In this document: piece by piece, positions 1 to 7,614 of the stretch
Numbering within the stretch: position 1 is the stretch's first letter
Layout of the letters: each line of letters opens with the position of its first letter
Assembly: GCA_945874665.1 (NCBI GenBank)
Contig: CAMCHJ010000020.1
Span: 1 to 35,618 of the forward strand
Source of the DNA: Chitinophaga pinensis
Lineage (GTDB): Bacteria; Bacteroidota; Bacteroidia; UBA7662
Direction of reading: 5' to 3'
DNA: 35,618 nucleotides
Translations under genes and position numbers: made by a program
The notes under the pieces: generated by a model
What the model was told of the DNA's origin: nothing
What the model saw: only the letters and a program-made list of their open reading frames with translations
Databases searched by the model: none

Positions 1-1749
1 AAGGTTGTTACCATTCAAATTTAAAATAGAACCGTCAAGAAGCGTTATGCCGCCACTGGATGCATTGCCTACTAATACATTGGTGCTACCACCAGTGGTG
101 CTCATCAATAAGGTGTTGGCAGTAGTTGCTTGAATGCGGAAGTAACGAATGGTGTTACCATTTCCTGTAAAAGTTTGCGTGCCAGCAGCTGTACCATTGG
201 TTTGTAGGGTGATGCTATTGGCGTCAATAGGGTTTACAACTGTACCTTGATAAGTTAAGTTGCCTGCTAACAAGATGGTGGCAAATGGTGAACCTCCTGG
301 TGCATCTATAGTGGTATTGTTTACTACGAAGTTTCCGGTGATGGTGGTGGTGTTTCCTGGGAAAGTTTTGGTGCCAGTACCGCTGAGGGTAAGGTTACCA
401 TAAGTTGTGCTTGCAGGAAGGGTAATGGCAACATCGTTGTACTGAACAGTACTTGTTGCAGCCAAAGTACCAAAAGTTGGCAAAGTGGTATTTTCAATGG
501 TGAGCTCAGCACCTCCACTTACGTCTACGGTACCAGTTACGGTAGCAGTGCTTGGAATGGTAAAATCACCGCTGCTTACCACAATTTTTGAACCGCTACC
601 AGAAACGGTCCAGTTACCAGAAATGGTGGTGGTAGCGTTGTTTGTGATGTTGAAAATTTGGGCATCTGCCGTAAAGTTAGTCGGTTCGGTGCCTGCACCA
701 CCGGCTGCATCGGTAGTCCAACTGGTTGTGTTTTGTAAACCTGTGGCAGTACCTGTTTTGGTGTAATAATTTACTACCGCAGTGCCGCTTACGCTGATGG
801 TGGGTGGTGTGGTAACGCCTCCACCTGAGAAACTCAGGTTGCCTGTTTTTGCACCACCGGTGGCTGGATTAAAACGTACATAAAAATTGGTGGATGAGAA
901 TGTGGCCGCTGAGTAAGCTACATTTACACTAGCAAAAAAGTCGGTGTTGTTAGTGCTTACTTGGAAATCGGTTGGAGCTGTTATTGTAATGTTGCCTGGG
1001 GCTCCCGTTAAATTATTGCCCGAAATACTGTAGGTTGTGGAGGACGTTGGGGTATTGATGGTGGTATTTCCAAAATTTGTTGAAGCTGGGCTTACAATGA
1101 GTTCAGGGGTTGAAGAACTTGAAACAGTTCCGGTAACTACTAAATCTTCTCCGCTTATATTGTTTATATACCATGTACCGCTCGAACCGCTTCCGCCCCA
1201 AAGCACGCATCTTATTGTGATTGTAGTACCTGCCGCTACATTTTGAAGTGCGCCAATTCCAGATAAATCAATGGCTGCTTGGGTATTACCAGTAGAAGTC
1301 GTTAATGCGCCCCAAGTGATGTCACCTCCAATATCTACAAATGAACCGCCACCAATTTGGTATTGCCATCTGCCAGTAGTTGGACCAGAGCCTGACCTGC
1401 GAATATTGTATGCCGCAATTTGAGTTAAAGAAACATTGAAACCAGCATTTGCGGTGATTTGAAAACTTGCGAAGTCGTTACCCGCCACGGCATTTGCAAA
1501 TGATGCTTCAGTTAATCCATTACCACCCCAGGCATTACTCGCTGCGGTGTTAATTGTGGTGAAACCTGCGCCTCTTGTCAAGCCACCGATTGTAACATTA
1601 CTGGCAGTTGTAGTAGCAGCTAAAGGTGAAGCGCCATAGGCTGTTAAGCCATTCATTTCCCACTCTGCTAAAGTTGTCTGTGCGTTAGCCTCTGTTAATC
1701 CGACCAAGCCAGCCAAAATCAAACAAAAGACAGTAAAATTTTTTTTCAT
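1..1749 (-). CDS. Large secreted repeat/Ig-like surface protein, 3' end outside window
   Basis: An open frame runs without a stop from the ATG at 1749 to the left edge (583 codons), so the C-terminus is missing. The first 24 residues form a Sec signal peptide (MKKNFTVFCLILAGLVG..., cleavage likely after ANA). Residues about 25-190 form a Gly/Thr/Ser-rich extracellular domain. A HYDIN/choice-of-anchor-like beta-sandwich follows (about 195-310, with FYVRFNPATGG and ISVSGTA strands). From about 310 onward there are parallel-beta-type repeats rich in Thr and Asn (motifs ITGNFVV, LAGNLTYQG, GITLLDGS). No enzyme motif is seen. Such proteins in Bacteroidota are usually exported by the T9SS and act as adhesins or sheath components, but the sorting domain would lie outside the window, so the export route is inferred. 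A promoter-like pair lies at 1856-1885. I am sure it is a gene, not of its exact role. Confidence 0.85.
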   Translation of the reverse strand, partial: MKKNFTVFCLILAGLVGLTEANAQTTLAEWEMNGLTAYGASPLAATTTASNVTIGGLTRGAGFTTINTAASNAWGGNGLTEASFANAVAGNDFASFQITANAGFNVSLTQIAAYNIRRSGSGPTTGRWQYQIGGGSFVDIGGDITWGALTTSTGNTQAAIDLSGIGALQNVAAGTTITIRCVLWGGSGSSGTWYINNISGEDLVVTGTVSSSSTPELIVSPASTNFGNTTINTPTSSTTYSISGNNLTGAPGNITITAPTDFQVSTNNTDFFASVNVAYSAATFSSTNFYVRFNPATGGAKTGNLSFSGGGVTTPPTISVSGTAVVNYYTKTGTATGLQNTTSWTTDAAGGAGTEPTNFTADAQIFNITNNATTTISGNWTVSGSGSKIVVSSGDFTIPSTATVTGTVDVSGGAELTIENTTLPTFGTLAATSTVQYNDVAITLPASTTYGNLTLSGTGTKTFPGNTTTITGNFVVNNTTIDAPGGSPFATILLAGNLTYQGTVVNPIDANSITLQTNGTAAGTQTFTGNGNTIRYFRIQATTANTLLMSTTGGSTNVLVGNASSGGITLLDGSILNLNGNNL

Positions 1750-2028: not shown

Positions 2029-3327
2029 TTACCACATCCCCGTCTTTAAAAACTTCCCTAAACGATCGCTACTTGAGACTTGGGAAGCTTTTTGAACGTT
2101 GCTAGTCACTGAGGGAGCCGCAGGGGGGCTTGTAATGGTATTTTTATCAAGGGCTACCTCCGGCGTAACAGCGGTGATGTTTAAATCTGAGGAGGGGTTT
2201 GGGCTTGCCGCAGTGGCTGGTTTCGCTGTTGGTGTACGCGGCACTGCTTTTTGCGCGGCAGGTGTTTCACTTTTTTGGGCATGGTCGCTGTTAAGCATTG
2301 GCTTTCCACTGCCATTAGCAAAACTCACAATGGTGGTCGCATTACCGAGGTCGATGCCCATGGCTGACGATGCATCGCCATTATTGAGCTGGATGCTGTT
2401 GATACAGTAGCCCGTGGCGGCCATGACTTCTGGTGTACTTGGCACAAGTACTTCTACGATAGCTCTGAACTCTTGGTTGAATTGCGCAACTAAATCCTCG
2501 TAATAAGCGCCGCCTCCCACAAGGTAAAGCCTGTCGGCCTGCTGAAAGTCGGCATCCTGAAAAGCCTTCCGCAAAGCTGGTGAAATCACGTCTTGGTAAT
2601 ACTGCTGCAGCACCCGTTCACGGGTTTCTCGCAGGTCAACCCGTTTGCGATTGCTATACAGGAAGCCTTTTTGGAAGGCTTGGTCGAGCTGGTGCTCGTT
2701 CTGCAAATCGAGGTAATGTTTTTTACCAAGTTCGTTCATCATCAAGTTCACCGCATAGCGCAGACCGTTGGTGAAGATGGCGGTACGTTGTACAGCACCG
2801 TTTTCGGTACTCATAATGGCCTCACAGGTGCCAAAACCAAGCGATACCACAAAAAAATTGCCTTTGGCTTGGGTTAGGCCGTGTCTGAGTCCAATGATGC
2901 AACCGTGAATTTCGGGCAGCACATGCACTTTATTTACCGTTACGGGTATGTTGGAGCGAATGGCATTTGAGTAAGTGGATGGGTCAAACTCAATAACATG
3001 GTCTTTTTCAATGATTTCAACCGCTTGCTCGCGGTAGAGCTGGTAGGTGGAGGCGGGAAAACCAGTGGTTACGGTAAATTTGCTTGTACCGAGCTTGTGA
3101 GTAGCTAACAGCAATGCCGATTTTAACAGCAATTTGTATTCTAATTCACCCGGGGCTGAATTGATGTTTTTGTGTGGGGCCACGCCTTGGTTCAGGGCCA
3201 AATTGCCGATTACGTAAGCCTGTCGCTTCTCGTGTAACTTCAACCCATTGATGAGGTTTGGAGCTACTTGGCGCAACTCTGTATTGTGGCCCTCGATGAT
3301 ACTGGGGAATTGTAAAAATTCAAACAT
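2029..3327 (-). CDS. Actin-like (ParM/Alp-type) ATPase with circularly permuted motif order
   Basis: This is a 432-residue ASKHA-fold protein from the ATG at 3327; the open frame extends to a TTG at 3387, with a GTG at 3369. Residues 1-60 resemble the segment that follows the first hairpin of ParM/StbA proteins (LQFPSII, then AYVIGNLAL). A phosphate-2-like motif VVSLGFGTCE lies at 160-169, an adenosine motif LYLVGGGAYYEDL at 267-279, and the closing helix VMAATGYCI at 301-309. The phosphate-1 motif MGIDLGNATTIVSF, which opens actin-like proteins, lies instead at 323-336. A Pro/Ala/Ser/Thr-rich, probably disordered tail and a terminal DRLGKFLKTGMW follow. An in-frame TAG just upstream of the TTG excludes an N-terminal copy. 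The usual phosphate-2 Asp is Ser162. The family forms filaments that segregate plasmids or position structures. No ParR-like or centromere-like partner is seen, so function is unknown. The TTG overlaps a TAGTTTTG box, which is why the ATG was preferred. Confidence 0.82.
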   Translation of the reverse strand: MFEFLQFPSIIEGHNTELRQVAPNLINGLKLHEKRQAYVIGNLALNQGVAPHKNINSAPGELEYKLLLKSALLLATHKLGTSKFTVTTGFPASTYQLYREQAVEIIEKDHVIEFDPSTYSNAIRSNIPVTVNKVHVLPEIHGCIIGLRHGLTQAKGNFFVVSLGFGTCEAIMSTENGAVQRTAIFTNGLRYAVNLMMNELGKKHYLDLQNEHQLDQAFQKGFLYSNRKRVDLRETRERVLQQYYQDVISPALRKAFQDADFQQADRLYLVGGGAYYEDLVAQFNQEFRAIVEVLVPSTPEVMAATGYCINSIQLNNGDASSAMGIDLGNATTIVSFANGSGKPMLNSDHAQKSETPAAQKAVPRTPTAKPATAASPNPSSDLNITAVTPEVALDKNTITSPPAAPSVTSNVQKASQVSSSDRLGKFLKTGMW

Positions 3328-3392: not shown

Positions 3393-3660
3393 GCTGATGC
3401 TATGTGAATGGGAGGGTGCTTCCGATTATTTTTAGGTTAAAATTATGTGAAGTATGGAAATGAATTGACGGCCTAATGTTTGGTATCTATAGCATTAAGA
3501 AAAACAGATATTTTATATACTCAGTTTTTTTTCGGGCTATAACCTGCTTGTTAAATGGAGCAAAACCGCGCTCCTGTAGACTAATTTTTGAGCCACAAAT
3601 AAAGGAGTGCAGCGCCATTCCTTCTATGCTCTATAACGTAAAAACAGTCTTTACTTTCGG
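3393..3660. other. Intergenic region without a recognisable gene
   Basis: About 270 AT-rich bases lie between two minus-strand genes. A small dyad GGAGC(8 nt)GCTCC at about 3557-3574 lacks a clear U-tract. The 62-codon plus-strand frame here starts in non-coding sequence, has no homology I recognise and runs into the end of the neighbouring gene. Confidence 0.4.
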
Positions 3661-4875
3661 CTAATCTTGCTCGGCATAACCAGGACCTAAATAGGTAAAT
3701 GCAGGCGTCAAACCACCGTTGTTGGTGATGGTAGCGCGCTCAATCAGAGGGTGCTGTTGCGGTGAGAGCAGCAAGTGCATCACGTGCTTTACGAGGTTGT
3801 AGCTGAACTCGCGGGAAGCATCTACGGGTAATTCGCAGGGGAGGTTGTCAACGGCCATTACGTCGATGGAGCCAGAACTAAAGGCCAAAGTTTCGGCTTC
3901 GGTTTGTGGGTTGTAACCGTACACCGGGTCGGGAATGGTGCTGGCACGCAGGGTAGAAGGAATGCTGCCATCGATGTCGCAAGTAATGTCGGCTATGGTT
4001 TTGATGTTGAAACCCGCCTGCTTCATGTCTGCCTTGCTGAAGAAAACAGGGGCCTTGGGCGCCCAATAAATGGTGTTGATCATGAGGTCGGCCACCTCGG
4101 TATAAGGCGCAAAAATCGATACATATTCCTCGGGATGGGCATGAAAATGAGCGCCGTCCCAAGGCCTGTTATCGCGGTGGCGGTACATGTCTTTGCTCCG
4201 CAGCTCGCAATATACAGCTTCATTAAAATCTTCGCTGAGGAACTCCTGTGCACTCACCATGCGCAAACCGGCCACGCTTAACATCTCCACTGCACCGGCA
4301 CCCACACGGCCAGTACCTGCAACCACCACTTTCATGGGCGGAAGGTTGAGACTGGTGTAGGTGGCCCGCATTTCGGCATAATCGCGAAAGGAGTGCGCGG
4401 GTTTGAGATGGAATTTGCCAGTTCTGTGACCGTAAGTCATCAGGCCATTATGTGTGCCCACCACGCCGGCAAAATGCCCGAAAGCCACTGCTCGTTTACC
4501 ATTTTCGAAAGTAAGCAGCTCATAATCGATCATTTTGATCCGCAATTTGAGCAGTTCTTGAAGCAACTTACGGTTGTAGGGCTGCTTTTTGATGGTGTGT
4601 GAGAAAAACAAATAAGTCTTATTGGGCACCAATAAACTCACTGGCACTTCTTTTACCCCCATCAGAATGTCGCAACTGCTCAGATCTTCGCTGACTATAC
4701 AGCCTGCGCGCTGGTAAGCAGACTCCGAAAAGCAACGGATATCAGAGGGTTGCACCAAAATCTCGAGGTGTCCATACTGCTGCAGCAGCTCTTGGCAATG
4801 TTCGGGGATGAGGGGAACACGGTGGTCGGGCGGAACTTTGCCCTCGCGGAGAATGCCTAAGCGAATGGTTTGCAT
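3661..4875 (-). CDS. Saccharopine/alanine dehydrogenase-like NAD(P)-dependent oxidoreductase
   Basis: This 404-residue protein belongs to the alanine dehydrogenase/pyridine nucleotide transhydrogenase fold, closest in pattern to LYS1-type saccharopine dehydrogenase. The N-terminal substrate domain opens with LGILREGKVPPDHRVPLIP. Lys75 (in GVKEVP) and His93 (in FSHTIK) sit where the catalytic Lys and His of LYS1-type enzymes lie. GTGRVGAGA (187-195) is the Rossmann nucleotide-binding loop. ITCDIDGSIPST and GYNPQT fit the family's C-terminal half. The family's reaction is NAD(P)-linked oxidative deamination or saccharopine cleavage; the true substrate cannot be read from sequence, and a lysine-pathway assignment would be inference. 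The ATG at 4875 directly precedes the conserved N-terminus. The gene stands alone between the tmRNA and the actin-like gene. Confidence 0.85.
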   Translation of the reverse strand: MQTIRLGILREGKVPPDHRVPLIPEHCQELLQQYGHLEILVQPSDIRCFSESAYQRAGCIVSEDLSSCDILMGVKEVPVSLLVPNKTYLFFSHTIKKQPYNRKLLQELLKLRIKMIDYELLTFENGKRAVAFGHFAGVVGTHNGLMTYGHRTGKFHLKPAHSFRDYAEMRATYTSLNLPPMKVVVAGTGRVGAGAVEMLSVAGLRMVSAQEFLSEDFNEAVYCELRSKDMYRHRDNRPWDGAHFHAHPEEYVSIFAPYTEVADLMINTIYWAPKAPVFFSKADMKQAGFNIKTIADITCDIDGSIPSTLRASTIPDPVYGYNPQTEAETLAFSSGSIDVMAVDNLPCELPVDASREFSYNLVKHVMHLLLSPQQHPLIERATITNNGGLTPAFTYLGPGYAEQD

Positions 4876-5592: not shown

Positions 5593-7566
5593 TTATTGGG
5601 CAACTACAAAGCGGTTGGTGTTGTAGCCTTTTGAAGTTTTAACTACGATCGAATAAACACCGTTCTGCAAAGAAGAGATATCAACTGGGATTACTTCGTT
5701 GCTGCTGTTGATCACAACGACTTCTGATGAAACGATACGACCAGCGATGTCAATCACCTCATAGCTGATACGGCCAAGACGCGCATCGGAAGCTACTGAC
5801 AGGTTAAGGATGTTTTTCGCAGGATTTGGATATACGTTCAGGTTGAGGTCTTTATTGATCTCATTAACGTTGATGGTGCTCGGTGCAACATTAGCCATGT
5901 TCAAGCTCATGCGGAGTGCATTACCATTGCTGAACCACTGTGTAGTGTAAAGCACAGATACAAACCAAGGCTGGGTGAAGGTAAGGTCATCAAGGAAACG
6001 AACGCGGTTTGCACCTGCGTTGGAAAACAAGTCGGCCTGTAACCAATAGTCACCAGGAGGTAGAACCCTGTTCTGTGGCGCACCAAATAATTCAGCCGGG
6101 AATTCAACACGGATGAAACCGTTGTTAATGTCTTCCTGCGTTATGACATAAATGTCAGATTCTACCAGGATTGTAGTTACGTCACCTGGCAAGCCGTTCG
6201 CTGGGTCTGGTGTGCGGATAGTAAACAATACCAAGCCACCTACCTGTGTTGAAGCAGTGCCACCCACGTTCAAACGTGCAGTAACGCTGGTTACGGTATC
6301 TTGGTTAACAAGCTCAAACAAGTTAGCCAAACCTACGTCTTGTGCAGGAGGGTTTCCAAACTGGCCAGTGCCCACAATACCTTGGCTGGCTGGAACAGCT
6401 ACAGCAGGACTGAAAGTAGAGTCGGTGATTGATAACTGACGAACAGCAGCATTATCCGCAGGCGTGATGTCGGTAGAATCAGATAGTGTTACATAGTTAA
6501 CCCGCATAAACGACAAATTCGTTGCAGGATAATTGGTCGTAATGGTCAACAAAGTATCTGTAAAAGCAGGCAATGAAGCCACCTGAGCAGAAACACCGGT
6601 GAAGAAAGTATTGTTGAGTGTATCCGCAACTGTTACATTTAAACGAACGTTTGGCTGAGCCACTTTACCGTTGTTACTAATACGCGCTTGGAATGTTAAA
6701 GGCGTTTTGTTTTGAATAGGCAAGATGCCATATTCCAAAGTACGACCATTGGCAGTATCTGGCAACATTACGGTAGTAGCGATGGCCAAATCGTTATCTG
6801 GAACTTCGGTGAGTTTAACATCGTCCAACATCCACACATAATACTGACCACTAAATAAAAAGGCGATTCGTACATTCGGGCTATTACCTATAAAGCTAGA
6901 TACGTTTACACGTACAATCGATGGGTTGGTTGTAGCTCCGTTTACTGCAATGGCGTTGTTTACCGTCAAAGTATCGCTCCAAGTAGCACCGCTATCTGTT
7001 GAGAACAATACATACGTGGCTGGCACAGTCTGTGAAGCAGCGGGACCAGCAAAACGGCGGTAGTATTGATAAAACTCCAAGCTAACGAAGGGTTGGCCAG
7101 TCAGGTTAATGATTGGGCTTACCAACAGCCCACGGTTTGGCGAAGGAAAAACGCCTAACCCCATGGTGCCTGCATTTCCGTTGTTATCCATCCAGTCTGA
7201 GTCGAATATAACAAACCCATTTGCTGTGGTTGGAGAGGCCAAAGGAGCAGCACTACCAAAAGCACCACGAGAGCCCGTAGCACGGGTTGGAACAGTTGCC
7301 GTACCACGGTATTCCCAAACACCGGTAGTATCGTGTGTATTGGTAATGTTTGTCGAACGAAAACCAAGACTTTGCCAAGCGCTTATGCCGCTGCCAAAGT
7401 TCTCAGTGAACAATACCGCGTTTTCAGTACCAACCGAAGTTTCTGGTACTGTACCTGGATTTTCTTGTGCACTTTTCAGAGCAGGTACAAAGCTCGGGCG
7501 CAACGACTGTGCCTGGACGGCTTGTCCAAACGCCAGCAAACTTGCCATCAATAGAATTTTTTTCAT
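5593..7566 (-). CDS. Secreted choice-of-anchor J-like protein with T9SS type A sorting domain
   Basis: The chosen ATG at 7566 opens a clean signal peptide (MKKILLMASLLAFGQAVQAQ); the frame continues eight codons upstream to 7590, which would spoil the signal. The mature protein is about 637 residues. Its N-terminal region (LFTENFGSGISAWQ, then RGLLVSPIINLTG, FVSLEFYQYYR and WMLDDVKL) matches the MAM/choice-of-anchor J jelly-roll pattern found in Bacteroidota exoproteins. CARDB/Ig-like beta domains follow. The last 75 or so residues form a T9SS C-terminal sorting domain (NVYPNPAKNILNLSV, VIDIAGRIV, LQNGVYSIVVKTSKG, RFVV). The protein should cross the inner membrane by Sec, pass the outer membrane by the T9SS and be anchored or released outside. 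No catalytic site is seen, so adhesion or matrix binding is inferred. It has its own terminator and a perfect -7 box. Confidence 0.9.
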   Translation of the reverse strand: MKKILLMASLLAFGQAVQAQSLRPSFVPALKSAQENPGTVPETSVGTENAVLFTENFGSGISAWQSLGFRSTNITNTHDTTGVWEYRGTATVPTRATGSRGAFGSAAPLASPTTANGFVIFDSDWMDNNGNAGTMGLGVFPSPNRGLLVSPIINLTGQPFVSLEFYQYYRRFAGPAASQTVPATYVLFSTDSGATWSDTLTVNNAIAVNGATTNPSIVRVNVSSFIGNSPNVRIAFLFSGQYYVWMLDDVKLTEVPDNDLAIATTVMLPDTANGRTLEYGILPIQNKTPLTFQARISNNGKVAQPNVRLNVTVADTLNNTFFTGVSAQVASLPAFTDTLLTITTNYPATNLSFMRVNYVTLSDSTDITPADNAAVRQLSITDSTFSPAVAVPASQGIVGTGQFGNPPAQDVGLANLFELVNQDTVTSVTARLNVGGTASTQVGGLVLFTIRTPDPANGLPGDVTTILVESDIYVITQEDINNGFIRVEFPAELFGAPQNRVLPPGDYWLQADLFSNAGANRVRFLDDLTFTQPWFVSVLYTTQWFSNGNALRMSLNMANVAPSTINVNEINKDLNLNVYPNPAKNILNLSVASDARLGRISYEVIDIAGRIVSSEVVVINSSNEVIPVDISSLQNGVYSIVVKTSKGYNTNRFVVAQ

Positions 7567-7614
7567 GATAAGTAGTATTTTCAATCTCAAATTTAAGGTT
7601 TTAAACGCTCATCT

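Follow-up and report, generated by a model that had tools for sequence, protein, structure and literature searches.

The window analysed here, a stretch of 35,618 nucleotides from Chitinophaga pinensis (contig CAMCHJ010000020.1), carries on its minus strand a gene of 432 codons (2029..3327; ATG at 3327, stop codon at 2029-2031) for an actin-like protein of 432 aa, the permuted order of which is indicated by the open reading frame, by homologues and by a structure model. Residues 1-318 (2374..3327), as delimited by structure alignment, make up the actin core, whose first element is the strand that normally follows the first hairpin and whose last is the C-terminal helix. Within this core lie a phosphate-2-like motif (VVSLGFGTCEA, residues 160-170, 2818..2850), in which the canonical Asp is replaced by Ser162 and the second Asp by Glu169, an adenosine-site motif (LYLVGGGAYYEDL, residues 267-279, 2491..2529) with an invariant GGG, and a closing helix at residues 299-314. 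The core is followed by a relocated phosphate-1 hairpin (residues 322-337, 2317..2364; predicted strands 322-327 and 331-337), which includes MGIDLGNATTIVSF at residues 323-336 as the last ordered piece of the protein, and by a disordered Pro/Ala-rich linker (residues 340-420, 2068..2310), which is confined to the clade of the window protein and has a pLDDT below 50 through most of its length. The chain ends in the peptide DRLGKFLKTGMW (residues 421-432, 2032..2067; all of these features are on the minus strand), which is strictly conserved at the protein level and for which a short helix is predicted with low confidence. The reading frame, its coordinates and the motifs at residues 160-169 (VVSLGFGTCE), 267-279 and 323-336 are as the original prediction had placed them, in the order phosphate 2, adenosine, closing helix, phosphate 1 and Pro/Ala-rich tail.

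The two ends of the ordered part can be read against the plasmid ParM of Persephonella, a canonical relative with the N-terminus MKVAFDLGFGWTKVCTDTGECFKFPTW; MGIDLGNATTIVSF and the N-terminal piece of the window protein, MFEFLQFPSI, correspond to pieces of this start that have been swapped. An in-frame TAG at 3400-3402 (minus strand) had been taken to exclude a hidden N-terminal copy of phosphate 1, and the 24 in-frame codons that precede the ATG are indeed free of such a motif. Directly upstream, at 3661-4875 (minus strand), lies a gene for a protein with an alanine dehydrogenase/PNT N-terminal domain, which adjoins the permuted-actin gene throughout the window clade, whose three members are the window protein, L028, and L029. 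A further gene at 5593-7590 (minus strand) codes for a protein that carries a sorting tail for type IX secretion (Por_Secre_tail).

Predicted fold and profile evidence

AlphaFold2 models of the window protein (pLDDT 80.8, pTM 0.76) and of a Salinibacter homologue whose chain ends after the hairpin (pLDDT 93.0, pTM 0.91) both have the two-domain actin fold that had been proposed, with Z scores of 21-28 against actin, MreB, and ParM. In the model of the window protein the core is mostly above 90 pLDDT and the linker mostly below 50, which bears out the disordered tail expected after the hairpin. The closest fold was ParM 6ixw by Foldseek (E 8e-15) and Dh-cParM1 by structure alignment (Z 27.6 over 301 residues, rmsd 2.9). 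Model residues 1..317 were paired with residues 23..360 of ParM, 24..356 of actin, and 22..326 of MreB, and in both models residues 1 to about 318 match ParM from residue 21-23 onward; apart from the first ~20 residues, the whole of a canonical actin is thus represented in this stretch, behind which the permuted protein has its extra hairpin. The N-terminus was said to begin where the segment after the hairpin normally lies, and residue 1 does align with approximately residue 20 of canonical actins. Both hairpin strands are present in both models with ten-residue mean pLDDT values of 84-95; this confidence, the strand assignment, and the invariant residues of the hairpin indicate that it most likely lies within the nucleotide site.

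With regard to sequence profiles, matches of natively ordered homologues to the Pfam model ALP_N (PF17989) begin at profile position 17 or 19, and at protein residue 3-4, and extend to the last position (17-148); when the hairpin is moved to the front, the match covers positions 1-148, with a gain of 7-10 bits in the two of the tested proteins for which ALP_N gives a match. The first profile positions are thus supplied by the C-terminal end, and a full-length PF17989 N-terminal domain in normal order was not found. The gain obtained by rejoining the hairpin therefore holds for these homologues and not for the window protein itself, which stays below the reporting limit of ALP_N in native and re-ordered form. 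Among 296 genomes searched with ALP_N, all 11 matches begin at position 16-21 of 148, and no canonical (i.e., normally ordered) ALP was detected. A profile of the family also matches the Hsp70 protein BiP in permuted order (316-339 to BiP 18-41, 97-177 to 146-234, and 251-287 to 335-373), with the hairpin piece alone being weak (2.6 bits). When the phage G and Persephonella ParM sequences were duplicated head to tail, the family-profile match stopped short of the hairpin, whose signal is probably too short to be picked up at such distance.

Distribution and conservation of the family

Full-length homologues of identical order occur at 74% identity in the same genus and at 57% in the same family, and both also share the upstream alanine-dehydrogenase-like gene. 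A sample of 395 genomes of the phylum contained 23 with a copy (window genome counted), and one scan of 84,980 species gave 83 relatives; the 80 of these that were listed all come from Bacteroidota or close neighbours and include isolates of Roseivirga, Cyclobacterium, Belliella, Chitinophaga, Fodinibius, and Salinibacter. Fetching 80 loci provided 79 intact homologues from Bacteroidota, Balneolota, Rhodothermota, and Ignavibacteriota, every one of which has the pattern G-[ILVM]-D-[ILVM]-G-N-x-x-[TS] exactly once, near the C-terminus. No phosphate-1-like pattern was found in the first 60 residues of these 79 proteins, nor was such a motif found in three frames within 400 bp upstream of the 79 loci. 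In a 38-row alignment, P8 and S9 on the N-terminal side and G324, D326 (the phosphate-1 Asp), G328, and N329 on the C-terminal side are invariant. The order is conserved in other Bacteroidota, and the normally ordered homologues that might have spoken against a permutation did not turn up: all 79 intact homologues are permuted, and the phylum sample holds no normally ordered ALP. As the order is common to Bacteroidota, Balneolota, Rhodothermota, and Ignavibacteriota, the permutation is, on this distribution, old. Between the window protein and a 76% identical relative, dN and dS are 0.10 and 1.1 for the core and 0.08 and 0.67 for the hairpin, values which indicate that both are under purifying selection. 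The gene is present in 3 of 60 relatives of the window genome and absent from most, so the permuted actin is accessory. At one locus (L064:5731-7122), the usual start is preceded by an open frame of ~85 residues (MGLMGWIRHTF...), a possible N-terminal extension, and the homologue has a long tail ending in PVRR.

The phosphate-2 site departs from the canonical D-x-G-x-x-T-x-D, as 78 of 79 homologues have S-x-G-[FY]-G-[TS]-x-E; the first position is Ser in 78 and Gly in one, and the second Asp position is Glu in all 79. The Asp carried here by canonical relatives is therefore not conserved in the family. In ParM and actin, this first Asp participates in hydrolysis. The Ser weakens the claim of an active ATPase and leaves that of an actin fold intact; ATP hydrolysis is probably altered, and nucleotide binding with slow or no hydrolysis would be expected from the replacement. 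In the profile alignment, the invariant E139 is aligned with the catalytic-site Glu of Hsp70.

Relation to known actin-like proteins

The permuted actin shares its fold, its adenosine and core motifs, the invariant phosphate-1 residues, and its core size with the ParM/ALP group (pCBH ParM 6ixw, Dh-cParM1 8x1i, Ta0583 2fsj, Alp7A 5ec0; PF17989), but differs from it in having a C-terminal rather than an N-terminal phosphate-1 hairpin, in having S..E instead of D..D at phosphate 2, and in being chromosomal with a bactofilin partner gene. MreB, FtsA, and MamK have the actin fold in common with it, but their order is canonical and profile matches are weak or absent; the MreB profile PF06723 matched the window protein over 21 residues (E 0.025), and an FtsA profile matched 1 of 38 members (E 0.005). 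The window genome encodes an intact MreB elsewhere, which makes the permuted protein an additional actin, and has two weaker actin-fold matches that are probably DnaK and FtsA. CorM (9rmi) and BeeR (8r2n), which belong to recently described bacterial actin-like families, are similar in fold, but they align in normal order, with model residue 1 falling at their residue 59. Membership in FcmB, another such family, was rejected, as the FcmB model matches 9 of 38 members weakly and far below cut-off; the paper describing FcmB mentions neither a permutation nor a bactofilin (PMC12645912). No NCBIfam model was found to fit the window protein. A plasmid or phage origin was likewise rejected, as tblastn against plasmids and phages gave matches of 22-24% identity only and two viral-contig scans were empty. 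With neighbour genes taken as the candidates for a partition adaptor, the neighbour found was a bactofilin, and there was no close plasmid or phage match.

A linked bactofilin with a terminal Trp

Of the 79 loci, 69 have a bactofilin gene immediately downstream of the actin gene in the same orientation, often overlapping it or a few bases apart, and no other neighbour was conserved across distant genera at the 79 loci. Eight representative neighbours score over the curated cut-off of the bactofilin domain PF04519. Trp is the last or the last but one residue of 68 of the 69 linked bactofilins (with endings such as VAW, RTW, SWF, GWI, KLW, and IEW), and the sole exception ends in LLF. Most genomes additionally have one unlinked bactofilin. 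A Trp at either of these positions was seen in none of 33 unlinked bactofilins, nor in the unlinked ones of 13 further searched genomes (a few of these genes are also among the 33). The shared ancestry of the domain is by itself unlikely to account for the Trp ending, since the preceding tail varies in length and composition. Bactofilins are known with an M23 peptidase partner (PMC10945521); those described here differ in being paired with a permuted actin and in having a Trp-ended tail, which the unlinked bactofilin of most genomes lacks. The linked bactofilin is absent at 10 loci, and several of these lineages, including some Balneolaceae and Litoribacter, are without any Trp-ended tail or tail of the type found in the window protein, so the partner is not obligatory. 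Overall, the bactofilin is very probably a functional partner in the family. In three Balneolaceae loci (L069, L071, and L067), the linked bactofilin is short and keeps a terminal KLW or RLW, with that of L069 matching domain positions 36-96 only; in two Melioribacteraceae loci, a bactofilin without terminal Trp lies ~1.2 kb downstream (L076:8178-8582 and L089:8169-8573).

The window protein, L028, and L029 form one clade (SH-aLRT support 100%) that has no bactofilin gene beside the actin; the only bactofilin in the window genome is located elsewhere and ends in ASA. In this clade the actin itself has a tail of ~90 residues, disordered up to a short helix, that ends in DRLGKFLKTGMW or KRIHKFLISGTW, with KFLKTGMW as the last residues of the window protein. 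Between the window protein and L028, the last 12 codons show no amino-acid change while synonymous changes are saturated; the tail end is thus under strong selection although the linker diverges. This strict conservation, together with the Trp-ended bactofilin partners, supports a docking peptide, for which we see the evidence as evenly poised. A second protein with KFLxxGxW was considered as a partner and rejected; each of the three clade genomes has a single copy of the DNA pattern, which lies in the permuted-actin gene, and two relatives without the gene have none.

Discussion

The predicted fold, the profile match restored in homologues by the rejoined hairpin, and the order conserved across Bacteroidota together uphold the proposed circular permutation, and the protein is almost certainly an actin-like protein of the ParM/ALP type that has been circularly permuted in nature. 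Its chain is opened right after the first β-hairpin (phosphate 1); the hairpin itself follows subdomain IA's C-terminal helix and most likely still completes the sheet and the nucleotide site from there. The best reading of the family is a chromosomal two-part cytoskeletal module in which a Trp-ended tail, carried by either partner, would serve for docking. The genes for the permuted actin and a Trp-ended bactofilin form a two-gene unit in most genomes that have the actin; the actin would bind ATP and form or cap a filament, and this filament would be anchored to, or position, a bactofilin scaffold via the flexible Trp-ended tail. In the window clade, the linked bactofilin is gone, and the actin itself has such a tail. 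Given the Ser at phosphate 2, slow or no ATP hydrolysis would be expected and, with it, a stable scaffold in place of a filament with fast turnover; the likeliest role would be a stable scaffold with bactofilin, e.g., in cell shape or in positioning of an envelope complex. We consider this reading as a whole (a permutant with a bactofilin-anchored filament or cap, a Trp-ended docking tail, and a stable scaffold) quite probable, while we lean only slightly towards the permuted actin being a filament former. A bolder version, which we regard as possible but doubtful, holds that the family represents a distinct cytoskeleton of the Bacteroidota superphylum, in which a hydrolysis-altered permuted actin copolymerises with, or is templated by, bactofilin via the Trp-ended tail, this tail having moved from bactofilin (in trans) to actin (in cis), where in the window clade it starts directly behind the hairpin that binds the nucleotide.

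The most serious competitor is a permuted actin that does not polymerise and acts as a nucleotide switch or adaptor, similar to Hsp70 or PilM, clamped on bactofilin. The Asp to Ser replacement at phosphate 2, the resemblance of short profile stretches to Hsp70, and a partner that already provides a polymer would all fit such a switch; however, the top whole-domain folds are ParM, Ta0583, and CorM, filament formers among them, and not Hsp70, and ~300 residues align with ParM, which makes a switch rather unlikely. That the protein is a chromosomal ParM which segregates DNA with an unrecognised adaptor appears very improbable: while Dh-cParM1, a chromosome-encoded ParM, and other ParMs are the closest folds and the profile matches partition proteins of phage G and Persephonella, no plasmid or phage homologue exceeds 24% identity, viral contigs gave none, and the only neighbour conserved across distant genera is bactofilin.

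For the tail of the window clade alone, a membrane-targeting helix would be the alternative to a protein-docking peptide. FtsA has a disordered linker and a short C-terminal helix, and the clade resembles it in combining an actin core, a disordered linker, and a short C-terminal helix with a net charge of +2 to +3. The hydrophobic moment is, however, not above that of shuffled sequences (37% and 59% of shuffles reach it), and the terminal Trp is shared with bactofilin tails that are not basic amphipathic helices, so we judge membrane targeting to be unlikely. A local rearrangement or assembly error as the source of the order has virtually no probability, given that independent genomes agree, including named isolates of Roseivirga, Cyclobacterium, Chitinophaga, and Salinibacter, and that core and hairpin are under purifying selection.

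No naturally occurring circular permutant is known to us from the actin/Hsp70 superfamily, and the open-access literature searched contained neither a description of a circularly permuted actin-like, ParM, or other superfamily protein nor a report of a bactofilin linked with a ParM-like protein. A conserved permutant shows that new termini next to the nucleotide site are compatible with the two-domain hinge. The pairing with bactofilin would directly connect, at the genetic level, an actin-like protein with a polymer that needs no nucleotide, and is open to test in cultured Chitinophaga, Cyclobacterium, Roseivirga, and Salinibacter. Two Salinibacter-like genomes (G201 with loci L010 and L026, and G249 with loci L013 and L027) each encode two permuted actins, each with its own Trp-ended bactofilin.
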